Source: Kiritimatiellales bacterium (lineage in GTDB: Bacteria; Verrucomicrobiota; Kiritimatiellia; Kiritimatiellales; Pontiellaceae). Taken from it: a stretch of DNA of 64,000 bases. The notes under the pieces were generated by a model. It had not been told where the DNA came from. It saw only the letters and a list, made by a program, of their open reading frames with translations, and searched no databases. The stretch lies in NCBI GenBank assembly GCA_003246265.1, contig QKAU01000008.1, positions 44,408 through 108,407 of the forward strand, given 5' to 3'. Position 1 is the stretch's first letter. Each line of letters starts with the position of its first letter. The translations under genes and the position numbers were made by a program. Positions 41,725 to 46,920 of this stretch are shown in pieces.

Positions 41725-42330
41725 ATGGGTACCGAGGATCCCTACAGCACACGCGCCACCCTCATCCAGCGGGTGCAGAACCAGCGCGACAATGATTCGT
41801 GGGAGGAGTTCGTCCGTGTTTACCGCCGCTACATCTACGCCATCATCCGTAGCATGGGGATCTCGGAGCATGACAGCGACGACATCCTCCAGCAGGTCCT
41901 GCTGAACCTGTGGAACGGCCTGCCGAAGATGGAGTACGAAAGAATCACCCGCTTCCGGAGCTGGCTCGCCGTCGTCACCAAGAACTGCGTCACCGATTTC
42001 ATCCGCAAGCGTTGCCGCGACGCCAGCCGCCTTGAGAAGGCCGGGCAGGACGAAACCCTCACCTACCTCGATTCCATCCGCCTTCCGGAAATCGACGCCA
42101 TCGCCGAGCGCGAATGGGAGATCCACCTGACCAACCTGGCGCTGGAAAACATCGAACCCCTCTTCACCGGCAAGGCGGTCGAGGCCTTCCGCATGTCGTT
42201 GCAGGGCATGGAGGTCGACGAGATCTCCAGAGCGCTGGAGCTGAAGGGAAACTCGGTCTATCGCCTGAAGAATCGCGTCAAGGAGCGGCTGATCCAGGAG
42301 ATCCGCCATCTCCGCGACCAATTGGAATGA
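41725..42330 (+). CDS. ECF-type sigma-70 family RNA polymerase sigma factor
   Basis: Region 2 DSDDILQQVLLNLWNGLPK, FRSWLAVVTKNCVTDFIRKR; region 4 KAVEAFRMSLQGMEVDEISRALELKGNSVYRLKNRVKERL. Confidence 0.88.
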   Translation: MGTEDPYSTRATLIQRVQNQRDNDSWEEFVRVYRRYIYAIIRSMGISEHDSDDILQQVLLNLWNGLPKMEYERITRFRSWLAVVTKNCVTDFIRKRCRDASRLEKAGQDETLTYLDSIRLPEIDAIAEREWEIHLTNLALENIEPLFTGKAVEAFRMSLQGMEVDEISRALELKGNSVYRLKNRVKERLIQEIRHLRDQLE

Positions 42331-44413
42331 CCGGATCCGCCTGGGCCGTATCGACCACCTCCATGGCCTCCCGGAGCCCGCCAACCACCTTTTTTGGATA
42401 TTCCGCGACATCCAGGACGACGCGCTCCAGCTTCAGGTTCTCAAGCACCCGGTCAAGCCGGTCGCGGGGTTCGAAGCCTTTCCCCGACATCCTCAGCTCC
42501 TTGATCCCCAGACCGGCCAGGCGGTTGAGGTTGATGCCCTTGCCATAACTGATGTCCAGGGAATGGAGCTTGAAGGGCCCGAGGACGTTGCGGCGGTAGA
42601 CGCCAAGGATGTCGAACGAGAAATTGACGTAGCCGGTGCGCGACAGGTCGAGATGGTACCCTTCATCCGTACGAACCAGGAGCATCCGCCGCCGGTTGCT
42701 CCTGCGGGAGACGGCGTTGAGTCGGTCCAGCATCGCCTCGGCAAGGGGGAGGTACTCCTCCGGTGCGGCCGAGGCCGGCCGGCGCCGCATGTGGTGGTAG
42801 TAGAGGTAGTAGACCGTCATGGCGGGCAGGTCCCGCTGCTCGTTGATCAGGTCGGCCAGCTGCTGGTCGCCTAGCCGCCGCTTGTCCTGCGGCTTGATGG
42901 CGGCATACTTCCGGCTCGCTTCCACCAGGGGGCCGACGGCCTGCGCATCCTCCCCCGCGGCCTCGAAGCATTCCAAGGCGGCGGCGAACTCCTCGAGCAC
43001 GAAATGGAGGGTGCCCTTCTGCTCCAGCAGGTGCTGGCGCTTCACGGTATCGACGTTCTCCTCCAGCCCCGTCTCGAGCACGTGGATCATGGAGGGGGCG
43101 TTGACAAAGTCGCGGCTGCGCACGGTGTAGAGCACCGCCTCGCCCAGATCCTCGCCCAGCGACTGGGTGAGCTGCTGTTCCTTGAGGTAGAGCCGGAAAT
43201 TGGCCTCCGCCGCCTGCCGCGCGGCCACGGCCCGCTCCTTCTCGCGGTTGATGACGACCAGGGTGCCACTCACCACGAAGGCAAGCACCAGCAGGAAGAC
43301 GATGATCAGGAACGCGATCCGGTCGTGGCGCTGGAGCAGGAGCGAAGTCCGCGTCATCCATCCCGCCCGCTCGGCCAGGGTCGGGTATCCGGTCAGGTAG
43401 CGGTCGATCTCCTCCCGCAGCTCCAGTACGGAGGCATAGCGGCTGTCCGGCTCCAGCGAAAGCGCCTTGAGCGCTACGGCGGCCAGGCTCCTTGGAATGG
43501 TCCGGCCCGCCTTGCGGCGGCGGGGCGGAACGATTTTCCCTTCCCGCGTGTTCTGCACCACCTCGTTCGCCGACGCGCCCTCCACCGGAAGCTCGTACGT
43601 CAGCAGCATGTAGAGCAGCGCACCCAGGGCATAGATGTCGGTCCTCGGGGTCTTTTCCCCGTACGCCACGGTCTGCTCGGGCGCCATGAATCCGGGCGTC
43701 CCCTTCATGGTTCCGGAGAGGGTCATGTCGTTGAGCACGTCGGCGTCCAGGGCGTCGCCACGATCCTGCACCGCTTCGTCCGGGGCATGCAGCACCCGCG
43801 CAAGCCCCCAGTCGCATACACGCACTTCGCCAAAGGCGCCGACCCGGATATTGCCGGGCTTGATGTCCAGATGGATCACGTTGCGGGAGTGGGCATAGGC
43901 TATGGCGTCGCAGACCTTGGCATAGATGCCGAGCAGGGTTTCGAGCGGATGGCGCTGCCGGTAGTCGGCATCGCTTTCGCGCAGCCTTTCGACGATGGTC
44001 TTCAGGCTGTCGCCCTCCACCAGCTCCATCGAGAAGAACGGCATTCCGTTGCCGTCCAGCCCCATATTGTAGACCGGCATGATGTGCGGGTGGGCCAGGT
44101 TGGCGGTCAGGCGCGCCTCGCGCAGGAACTGCTCAAGCTCCTGCGGCTGGTCGGCGCGGACGGCCCGGGCCATGGCGACGCGGCGGTCCAGCCGCCGGTC
44201 GTGGACCAGCGCAATGCGCTTTTCGCCTCCTTCGGCCAGGGGGCCGACCTCCTCGTAGCGCCCACCGGCGTCGCGCAATGAATTGAGGATCGGCGTCAGC
44301 GACGCCAGCTCTTCGTCCGTAAGTCCCGCTCCTTCGGTGTCGTAGAACTCCCGCAACGTCTCCTGGCGGCGGCGGAACCGCTGCTCCAAATCCTTGTCCT
44401 TGTCGTCGGCCAT
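42278..44413 (-). CDS. Membrane serine/threonine protein kinase with atypical ATP site and C-terminal LRR-like region
   Basis: VIHLDIKPGNIRVGAFGEVRVCDWGLAR, GTPGFMAPEQ, TDIYALGALLYMLLT; TM LIIVFLLVLAFVVSGTLVV; C-terminal HSLDISYGKGINLNRLAGLGIKELRMSG. Confidence 0.92.
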   Translation of the reverse strand: MADDKDKDLEQRFRRRQETLREFYDTEGAGLTDEELASLTPILNSLRDAGGRYEEVGPLAEGGEKRIALVHDRRLDRRVAMARAVRADQPQELEQFLREARLTANLAHPHIMPVYNMGLDGNGMPFFSMELVEGDSLKTIVERLRESDADYRQRHPLETLLGIYAKVCDAIAYAHSRNVIHLDIKPGNIRVGAFGEVRVCDWGLARVLHAPDEAVQDRGDALDADVLNDMTLSGTMKGTPGFMAPEQTVAYGEKTPRTDIYALGALLYMLLTYELPVEGASANEVVQNTREGKIVPPRRRKAGRTIPRSLAAVALKALSLEPDSRYASVLELREEIDRYLTGYPTLAERAGWMTRTSLLLQRHDRIAFLIIVFLLVLAFVVSGTLVVINREKERAVAARQAAEANFRLYLKEQQLTQSLGEDLGEAVLYTVRSRDFVNAPSMIHVLETGLEENVDTVKRQHLLEQKGTLHFVLEEFAAALECFEAAGEDAQAVGPLVEASRKYAAIKPQDKRRLGDQQLADLINEQRDLPAMTVYYLYYHHMRRRPASAAPEEYLPLAEAMLDRLNAVSRRSNRRRMLLVRTDEGYHLDLSRTGYVNFSFDILGVYRRNVLGPFKLHSLDISYGKGINLNRLAGLGIKELRMSGKGFEPRDRLDRVLENLKLERVVLDVAEYPKKVVGGLREAMEVVDTAQADPVIPIGRGDGGSPGSAAP

Positions 44414-44547: not shown

Positions 44548-46920
44548 ATGAAGATTCCCCGCATTGCGTTCCTCTCCCTTCTCCTGCCGGGCTTCGCGGC
44601 CGCCCTGGAATTCACCCAGCAGGGCGAATACCGCGGGTCTTCGGACTGCCTGGCCTGCCACGAGCGGTTCTACGAGCTCTGGAGCACCTCGCACCACGGC
44701 AAGGCGATGCAGGCCTTCAGCGCCGCCTTCGCCCGTTCGCTCGCGCCGATGGAGGCCCCCCTCGCGATCGGCGACCAGCGGTTCGTCGTCGAACTCAATG
44801 GAAGCGGCGGACTCCTGCGGCAGCTCGATGCCGATGGCACGGAGAAGGCGTACCCCATCCTGCACGCCCTCGGTGGAAAGAACGTCTACTTCTTCCTTGT
44901 TCCGCTCGACAAGGGCAAGCTCCAGGTCGCACCGCTGGCCTACAACGTCCACACGAAGATCTGGTACAACGCCACCGGTAGCATGGTGCGCCACTTCACC
45001 AACGGCCTGACCGACCAGGCGCTCGAATGGACCGACCGGCAACTGACCTTCAATACCGCCTGCCACGACTGCCACATCAGCCAGTTGCGGAAGAACTACG
45101 ACCCCGGGACCGACAGCTACACCACCACCTGGAAGGAAGCGGGCATCAACTGCGAAGTCTGCCACGGCCCCGCCGAGGCCCACATCAAGGCCGCGGAGCA
45201 GGCGGCCGCCAAAGGGGAAAAACTCGAAGACATGAAACTGGTCCGCTTCCACAAGGATCTCGACCACCGGCAGCGCGACGCCACCTGCGCGCCGTGCCAT
45301 GCCAAGATGTCCCCCCTGACCAGCGACTTCACCCCCGGCGAACTCTTCTTCGACCACTACGACCTGATCTCCTACGAAGATCCGGACTTCTGGCCCGACG
45401 GGCGCGACCTGGGCGAAAACTACACGCAAACCGGATGGATGGCCAACCCGTGCGCCAATTCCGGACAGCTCGAGTGCATCCACTGCCACACCTCGAGCGG
45501 GCGTTTCCGCTTCAAGGACAATCCCAACCAGTCCTGCCTGCCGTGCCACCAGGAACGGGTGGATAAGATCCTAGACCACTCGCACCACCAGGCCGAAGAC
45601 CGCGTCAACTGCGTCGACTGCCACATGCCGAAGACCGCGCAGGCGCACATGCACCGATCCGACCACACTTTCCGGCCCCCTTCGCCCGCCGCATCGATCG
45701 AATTCGGCTCTCCCAACGCCTGCAATCTTTGCCACAACAACAAGGAAGCCATCACCGGCGACTTCCACGGGCACCGCAAGGAGGACTTGGAGTGGGCCGA
45801 CCGCCATGTCAAGGCATGGCACGGCGAAGAGAGCGGTGCCAAGGTGCTCGAACTGGGCCGGATCATCGAAGCCTGCCGGGATGGCGACTGGGACCAGTTG
45901 CCCGCGATCCTCGCCTATCTGGAAAGCCCCGAATGCGATCCCGCCGCAGGCACCGCCATCCTGCGGCTGCTGGCGAACTGCCCCCACCCCGAAAAGTGGG
46001 ACGCCGTCCGCGGGCAGTTGTCGAATACCAACGAGTGGGTTCGCTCGGCCGCCGCGGCGGCCCTGCAGTACGACAGCTCCCCCGAAGCCACCCGGGCCCT
46101 CGTCAAAGGCGCCCAGGACCGCTTCCGCACCGTGCGCATCCGGGCTGCGGCGTCGCTGCTGGGCCGGGACCTCGCCGGCTATTCCGAGGCGGAGCGCAAG
46201 GCCTGCTCGGCCGCCCACGACGAATACTGGAATTCGCTGACCATCTGGCCCGACCGGTGGTCGACCCACTACAACCAGGGCATCTACTTCGACCGGATCG
46301 GCGATTCCAGCAAGTCGCTGGAGGCCTACAACAAGGCAATGGGGCTACGCGACGATGTGATACAGCCGATGATCAACGCCTCCATGGTCCATGCCCGGAG
46401 CGGCGACAGCACCAACGCCTACGTCCTGCTCCAGAAGGCCCTGGCCATTGAACCGCGAAGCGCGATGGTCAATTTCAACCTCGGTCTGCTCGAGGCCGAA
46501 TTCGACCATCTGGATGCAGCCGAGGCGCACCTGCGGGCCGCGCTGGCTGCCGAACCGCGCATGGCGCAGGCCGCCTACAACCTGGGCATCCTGCTCGGCC
46601 GCCGAAACGACCCGGAAGGCTTCAGGCAGCTGGAGTCGGCCGCCATGGAACTGCCCGAAAACTGGAACTACGCCTCCTCCTATCTCTACTTCATCGGCCA
46701 GGCGGGCCGGGGTACCGAAGCCGGGGGATTCCTACAGCGCATCATCGCCACCGGCAGGGCCGCCCCCGAGGCCTACTTTGCCCTGGCAGGCGAGTACGAG
46801 CGGGCCGGCCGCAGCGCCGAAGCGGCGGAAATCTACAAGCAGGCCAAGCTGGCCCGCCATCTTCCCATGGAGGCCAAGCGCCATGCGGCCCGCATGGAAC
46901 AGCGGCTGCGCGGCAACTAG
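44548..46920 (+). CDS. Eight-CXXCH multiheme cytochrome c fused to HEAT-like and TPR repeats
   Basis: CLACH, CHDCH, CEVCH, CAPCH, CIHCH, CLPCH, CVDCH, CNLCH; C-terminal TPRs SWSTHYNQGIYFDRIGDSSKSLEAYNKAMGL...; signal peptide. Confidence 0.93.
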   Translation: MKIPRIAFLSLLLPGFAAALEFTQQGEYRGSSDCLACHERFYELWSTSHHGKAMQAFSAAFARSLAPMEAPLAIGDQRFVVELNGSGGLLRQLDADGTEKAYPILHALGGKNVYFFLVPLDKGKLQVAPLAYNVHTKIWYNATGSMVRHFTNGLTDQALEWTDRQLTFNTACHDCHISQLRKNYDPGTDSYTTTWKEAGINCEVCHGPAEAHIKAAEQAAAKGEKLEDMKLVRFHKDLDHRQRDATCAPCHAKMSPLTSDFTPGELFFDHYDLISYEDPDFWPDGRDLGENYTQTGWMANPCANSGQLECIHCHTSSGRFRFKDNPNQSCLPCHQERVDKILDHSHHQAEDRVNCVDCHMPKTAQAHMHRSDHTFRPPSPAASIEFGSPNACNLCHNNKEAITGDFHGHRKEDLEWADRHVKAWHGEESGAKVLELGRIIEACRDGDWDQLPAILAYLESPECDPAAGTAILRLLANCPHPEKWDAVRGQLSNTNEWVRSAAAAALQYDSSPEATRALVKGAQDRFRTVRIRAAASLLGRDLAGYSEAERKACSAAHDEYWNSLTIWPDRWSTHYNQGIYFDRIGDSSKSLEAYNKAMGLRDDVIQPMINASMVHARSGDSTNAYVLLQKALAIEPRSAMVNFNLGLLEAEFDHLDAAEAHLRAALAAEPRMAQAAYNLGILLGRRNDPEGFRQLESAAMELPENWNYASSYLYFIGQAGRGTEAGGFLQRIIATGRAAPEAYFALAGEYERAGRSAEAAEIYKQAKLARHLPMEAKRHAARMEQRLRGN

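Follow-up and report, generated by a model that had tools for sequence, protein, structure and literature searches.

The absence of the beta-3 (VAIK) lysine is a usual mark of a pseudokinase (PMC12599244), and a 2007 survey of the microbial kinome named the WNKs as the only functional ePK family without K72 (PMC1821047). In WNKs, K55 (PKA numbering) is needed for catalysis and contacts ATP as K72 does (PMC1821047). A 2025 review of bacterial pseudokinases describes lysine migration only for the eukaryotic WNKs and for POMK, and contains no family like the one we report here (PMC12599244). In the literature that we searched, bacterial WNK-like kinases are not reported, and the 42-family bacterial kinase atlas may contain an earlier description. 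The bacterial pseudokinase families ActPs1-3, GLW, CP1, DYD and DLHK also lack the beta-3 lysine, but they lose further motifs or have this lysine replaced by arginine, and no loop lysine has been described for them, whereas the clade analyzed here has a loop lysine and retains all other catalytic residues. In CAK-chloro (Arg55) and POMK (Lys), a positive charge has likewise shifted to the glycine-rich loop; both are distant families without the alpha-C glutamate, which is invariant in the clade described here.

The layout of the kinase that we analyzed is that of the Hanks-type receptor kinases PknB and StkP, with which it shares its kinase domain (1mru, E = 3.6e-34; best Foldseek matches) and the order of an N-terminal kinase, a transmembrane helix and an external C-terminal domain. 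PknB, however, has the beta-3 lysine and HRD, whereas our kinase has no PASTA repeats and has its putative catalytic lysine displaced. As in the locus presented here, the ECF43 pairs EcfP/PknT and EcfK/PknS consist of an ECF sigma gene beside a gene for a transmembrane Ser/Thr kinase, and these pairs act by direct phosphorylation (PMC8999054, PMC13147305); EcfP lacks the acidic DAED motif (PMC8999054), and phosphorylation of EcfK has been reported at Thr106 (PMC13147305).

A putative receptor kinase with a lysine in its glycine-rich loop

The locus lies in a window of 64,000 nucleotides, i.e., the whole stretch of DNA that was analyzed, from a Kiritimatiellales bacterium. Its features are as follows, with residue numbers referring to the kinase.

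42278..44413, minus strand: transmembrane Ser/Thr kinase (P0001), 711 aa, ATG start, with a proposed displaced catalytic lysine
43439..44242, minus strand: protein kinase domain, residues 58-325
44219..44230, minus strand: glycine-rich loop GGEK, residues 62-65, including Lys65, the proposed displaced catalytic lysine (codon 44219-44221)
44168..44179, minus strand: beta-3 VAMA, residues 79-82, with Ala82 in the place of the VAIK lysine
44117..44119, minus strand: helix-C Glu99, within FLREA
43850..43873, minus strand: catalytic loop HLDIKPGN, residues 181-188, with Leu182 in place of the HRD arginine
43844..43846, minus strand: Arg190, at the position under the adenine
43805..43813, minus strand: metal-binding DWG, residues 201-203
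43694..43705, minus strand: activation-segment KGTP, residues 237-240, before APE
43250..43318, minus strand: predicted transmembrane helix, residues ~366-388
42281..43249, minus strand: predicted periplasmic region, residues 389-711
41725..42330, plus strand: ECF-type sigma-70 factor, 201 aa (Sigma70_r2; TIGR02937, sigma70-ECF), convergent with the kinase gene

The Pfam profile PF00069 matches the translated open reading frame with 104.5 bits against a curated cut-off of 31.7 (E = 8e-30), identifying a Hanks-type kinase, and every motif named in the preliminary description of this DNA is present in it (GGEK, VAMA, Glu99, HLDIKPGN, DWG, and APE at residues 244-246). The glycine-rich loop reads LAEGGEK, with Lys65 at the third glycine position. 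An AlphaFold2 model of residues 1-370, built with 118 aligned sequences (mean pLDDT 88; above 90 through the N-lobe and mostly 90-99 in the kinase domain), has a PknB-like fold, in which strand beta-2 begins at K65, placed with high confidence, and beta-3 contains A82. PknB, StkP, Stk1 and PknA are the closest solved structures in both sequence and fold. The chlamydial PknD equivalog (NF009651) is the best NCBIfam relative only, and was rejected as an assignment, with 226 bits against a cut-off of 839.

The preliminary description had also claimed a transmembrane helix followed by a large external region with an LRR-like ending. One helix is indeed predicted, at the hydropathy maximum, and an AlphaFold2 model of residues 357-711 (pLDDT 86) contains a long helix, TPR-like helices and a small beta/LRR-like cap. 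The LRR-like ending is plausible but weak, with a paralogue (L002) matching LRR_4 just under the Pfam cut-off (E = 9e-6). For the C-terminal region of the kinase itself, a Pfam search gave no match and a Foldseek comparison of the model with the PDB gave no confident match, and on these two results we reject a carbohydrate-binding fold in this kinase's own external domain.

Conservation of the loop lysine and coupled changes among relatives

Our scan of bacterial genomes identified 18 close relatives of the kinase, all in Kiritimatiellales/Pontiellaceae, the class of which is placed in Verrucomicrobiota (PMC7356697). Residues G62, G63, E64, K65, V79, A80, M81, A82, E99, H181, L182, D183, K185, N188 and D201 are invariant in 19 of 19 aligned orthologues. 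Two paralogues in the same genome represent both arrangements: L002 has GGMK and VAMA, i.e., a loop lysine and a beta-3 alanine (hereafter "swapped"), and L003 has GSFG and VAIK with HRD, i.e., it is conventional. A fourth kinase in this genome (L195, C62:48058-48891) has HSDIKPAN and DYG, with an N-lobe that is not alignable with the others.

Profile searches and retrieved regions gave a comparison set of 145 non-redundant kinases (<90% identity), of which 91 are swapped, 53 are conventional, with a beta-3 lysine and, in place of the loop lysine, G, A, S or V, and one is a degenerate Streptomyces sequence (L023). Neither double-lysine nor lysine-free forms were found among the 144 swapped and conventional kinases. 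We also ran a DNA pattern, GG[E/M]K at a set spacing from [V/I]AMA, on 388 genomes of the kinase's phylum; 98 genomes matched, the reversed-pattern control was almost empty, and 21 of the 30 pattern loci that we retrieved were kinases. When loci found by this pattern are left out, the 112 relatives divide into 59 swapped and 53 conventional kinases, with zero exceptions. The swapped kinases come from one phylum and at least 16 of its families, with identity to the window kinase down to ~40%, and are a large bacterial group that is apparently undescribed. In all 91, the catalytic aspartate (D183), the catalytic-loop lysine and asparagine (K185 and N188), the metal-binding aspartate (D201) and the alpha-C glutamate (E99) are present, the last being invariant across all aligned kinases.

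These alignments bear out the earlier claim that the beta-3 lysine is missing. VAMA aligns column by column and without gaps with the VAMK, VALK or VAIK of relatives, Ala82 stands at the place of the lysine (Ala in 91 of 91 swapped and Lys in 53 of 53 conventional kinases), and a conventional lysine hidden elsewhere in beta-3 is thereby ruled out. The WNKs lack this lysine too and are nevertheless counted among the Hanks-type (PF00069) kinases. The preliminary description had also proposed asking whether the loop lysine is conserved together with the loss of the VAIK lysine. It is so conserved in 19 of 19 orthologues and 91 of 91 divergent relatives, and this invariance rules out chance or a sequencing oddity.

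The viral contigs that we searched contain only two distant relatives, neither of them swapped. One relative (L052), with a TATV loop, VAMK, HLDLEPEN and HWG, is likely a true pseudokinase belonging to the same superfamily. A swapped kinase at G131 C19:12915-13784 (L032, L058) contains an in-frame TAG inside its domain, and is a pseudogene, an error or a case of recoding.

The positions that differ most from conventional DWG relatives are A82 and K65, followed by 190, L182, T289, K237 and K254. HLD is found in 88 of 91 swapped kinases, as opposed to HRD in 48 of the 54 remaining relatives; DWG is present in 89 of 91; and Lys237 of KGTP is coupled to the swap (75 of 91 swapped kinases vs 5 of 54 others). 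Residue 190, which is equivalent to PKA L173 and forms the floor of the adenine pocket, is polar in 89 of 91 swapped kinases and in none of the conventional relatives. The residues found here are Gln (43), Arg (21), His (15), Asn (6), Lys (2), Ser (1) and Tyr (1), with Ile in two kinases, L002 and L031, a swapped lineage that branches early in our careful tree.

Some of the coupled changes occur without the swap, and the adenine-floor change accompanies it. For example, L135, L138 and L140 (families f58 and f83) have HLD, T289 and Lys or Arg at 237 (K/R-GTP), yet they have GGMG, VAMK and a hydrophobic floor; going by their motifs, they look like part-way forms beside the swapped clade. In L141 and L142 (family f46), the lysine is swapped (GGEK/VALA) but HRD is retained.

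In a quick tree built without the trait columns, all swapped sequences lie on one side of a branch with support of 69, and in a careful tree the swap needs two changes, with the HLD intermediates falling beside or inside the swapped group and the union of both supported at 85/91. The AU test does not reject a single clade of swapped sequences (p = 0.476). The swap takes one to two changes on the tree, and one gain, possibly plus one reversal, is enough to account for it, with the order of steps not fixed by the tree. Since so few changes explain the swap, the sequence counts given above are not counts of independent events, and the argument from them lies in the absence of later loss. As a tentative reading, the remodelled active site (loop Lys, beta-3 Ala, the Leu of HLD, the polar floor and KGTP) may have evolved once in the phylum, with part-way forms surviving, and produced an active clade that combines altered nucleotide recognition with a WNK-like lysine. 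The conventional and part-way relatives make the order of the steps in lysine migration testable by residue swapping.

Likeness to WNK kinases and readings of the active site

The earlier claim that the loop lysine occupies a WNK-like position held up on direct alignment: a 24-residue segment of WNK1 (PDB chains) and LAEGGEKRIALVHDRRLDRRVAMA of the kinase align without gaps, with K233 matching K65 and C250 matching A82. Both proteins have a lysine at the third glycine of the loop, none in beta-3, and an identical 13-residue spacing, and the alpha-C glutamate and the catalytic Asp/Asn/Asp are retained in WNK1 and in the bacterial clade. They differ in the residue at the beta-3 lysine position (Cys in WNK1, Ala in all 91 bacterial swapped kinases), in the catalytic and metal-binding motifs (HRD and DLG in WNK1, as checked in the PDB, vs predominantly HLD and DWG), and two residues after the catalytic-loop asparagine, where WNK1 has Phe and the bacterial clade a polar residue. 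In addition, the bacterial kinase, unlike WNKs, is a membrane receptor closest to PknB in sequence and fold. Because PknB is closest, and because HLD stands for HRD and DWG for DLG, the likeness to WNK is convergence and not membership of the WNK family, and the bacterial clade would be an independent second case of WNK-type displacement, probably active. The suggestion made previously that the kinase might be sensitive to chloride, as WNKs are, did not find support: the WNK chloride site includes Leu369 of DLG, and WNK1 L369F (DFG+1) is chloride-insensitive (PMC13397483). Chloride sensing through a DLG-type site is unlikely in the bacterial clade, because the bulkier Trp of DWG sits at the Leu369 position.

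We consider it likely that the window encodes a Ser/Thr receptor kinase that is anchored in the membrane and belongs to a bacterial clade of its own, with a WNK-type displaced lysine, and that this kinase acts on the adjacent ECF sigma factor. By this mechanism, Lys65, at the third glycine of the loop and the start of beta-2, would grip the ATP phosphates and pair with Glu99, replacing the beta-3 lysine, the vacated place of which would be occupied by Ala82, and D183, N188 and D201 would keep their usual catalytic and metal-binding roles. The C-terminal domain, on the periplasmic side, would sense an external cue, plausibly a polysaccharide product in such a habitat, and the cytoplasmic kinase would act on the ECF sigma factor of the adjacent gene, so that its regulon is switched on.

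The main doubt about this mechanism is the polar floor residue. Such a residue is uncommon at an ATP site; the clade might use nucleotides differently or not at all, and the residue suggests that nucleotide recognition has changed too. Conventional relatives and HLD intermediates alike have a hydrophobic floor, so that the floor changed along with the lysine swap, and the Phe at this position makes the likeness to WNK1 incomplete. The kinase might accordingly be active with Lys65 as something other than a plain substitute for K72, i.e., the nucleotide would bind in a different pose, or would not be ATP, and Q, R, H or N at 190 would form a new base/phosphate site together with Lys65. We regard this as unlikely, since the C-spine Ala80 and Met129 before the hinge are invariant, Glu99 is retained for the salt bridge, and the early-branching swapped lineage (L002, L031) has an Ile floor.

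The preliminary description had left two readings side by side, a rearranged active kinase and a pseudokinase. As a pseudokinase, the protein would have lost catalysis with its beta-3 lysine, and would act as an allosteric scaffold for the sigma factor, holding or releasing it, with the loop lysine serving in structure or phosphate binding only. The absence of the beta-3 lysine, a usual pseudokinase mark (PMC12599244), is consistent with this, as are the lost HRD arginine, the polar adenine floor and the acidic motif present in the partner sigma factor. Against it, E99, D183, K185, N188 and D201 remain invariant even in sequences only ~40% identical to the window kinase, whereas in the majority of described bacterial pseudokinase families several motifs are degraded, and the lysine reappears at one fixed site with zero exceptions. 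Because the loop lysine and beta-3 alanine are exceptionless in 91 kinases and the other catalytic residues are kept, this conservation favors an active kinase, and we judge a pseudokinase improbable. It also warns that annotation rules treating every kinase without the VAIK lysine as dead would be wrong for many bacterial genes.

That these proteins are true WNK relatives, with bacteria having acquired the gene from eukaryotes or having been the source of WNKs, is very improbable in spite of the identical lysine position and spacing, and we reject it on sequence and fold ranks, with PknB, StkP, Stk1 and PknA as the best PDB matches and no WNK among the best 60 by sequence or the best 50 by fold, with HLD, DWG and Ala in place of the HRD, DLG and Cys of WNKs, and with conventional and part-way relatives found inside the same phylum.

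The sigma-factor partner and a putative external signal

The convergent sigma gene overlaps the 3′ end of the kinase gene by 53 bases. This adjacency, which is of the ECF43 type, recurs among the relatives: an ECF sigma gene adjoins 45 of 91 swapped kinases, a lower bound as flanks are short in many loci, compared with 4 of 54 others, and about half of the swapped kinases are without a neighboring sigma factor of such type in the DNA examined. Three gene orders occur: the sigma gene is downstream and convergent, or it shares the strand of the kinase gene and lies either upstream or downstream of it. The kinase probably controls the neighboring sigma factor. The large clade, the coupling of the HRD-to-HLD change and the polar floor, and the recognition of the overlapping convergent gene as a conserved ECF sigma partner all go beyond the preliminary description.

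The pairs described here differ from the ECF43 pairs in their varying gene orders, in the displaced kinase lysine, and in that the partner sigma factors retain an acidic DAED-like motif (DSDD, DTED or DAED-like) in nearly all cases. Activation of the EcfP type, by filling in for a missing acidic motif, is thus not supported, and any activating phosphorylation must therefore act elsewhere, as for example at Thr106 in EcfK.

Paralogous sigma-kinase pairs (L016, L017, L020, L021 and L139) are located near genes for sulfatases, GH95, a SASA esterase and an MFS sugar transporter, and Pontiella is described as very rich in sulfatases (PMC7356697). Because the pairs adjoin sulfatase, GH95 and sugar-transporter genes, and because of this sulfatase richness, we infer that they sense polysaccharides. 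An F5/8 type C domain, a carbohydrate-binding fold, is present in the external region of two swapped sigma-linked relatives only (L163 and L170), and suggests sugar sensing in these. Our analysis points to a sigma-factor signaling system in polysaccharide-degrading bacteria. On the other side of the kinase gene, and divergent from it, a gene on the plus strand (44548-46920) encodes a multihaem cytochrome c with HEAT and TPR repeats.
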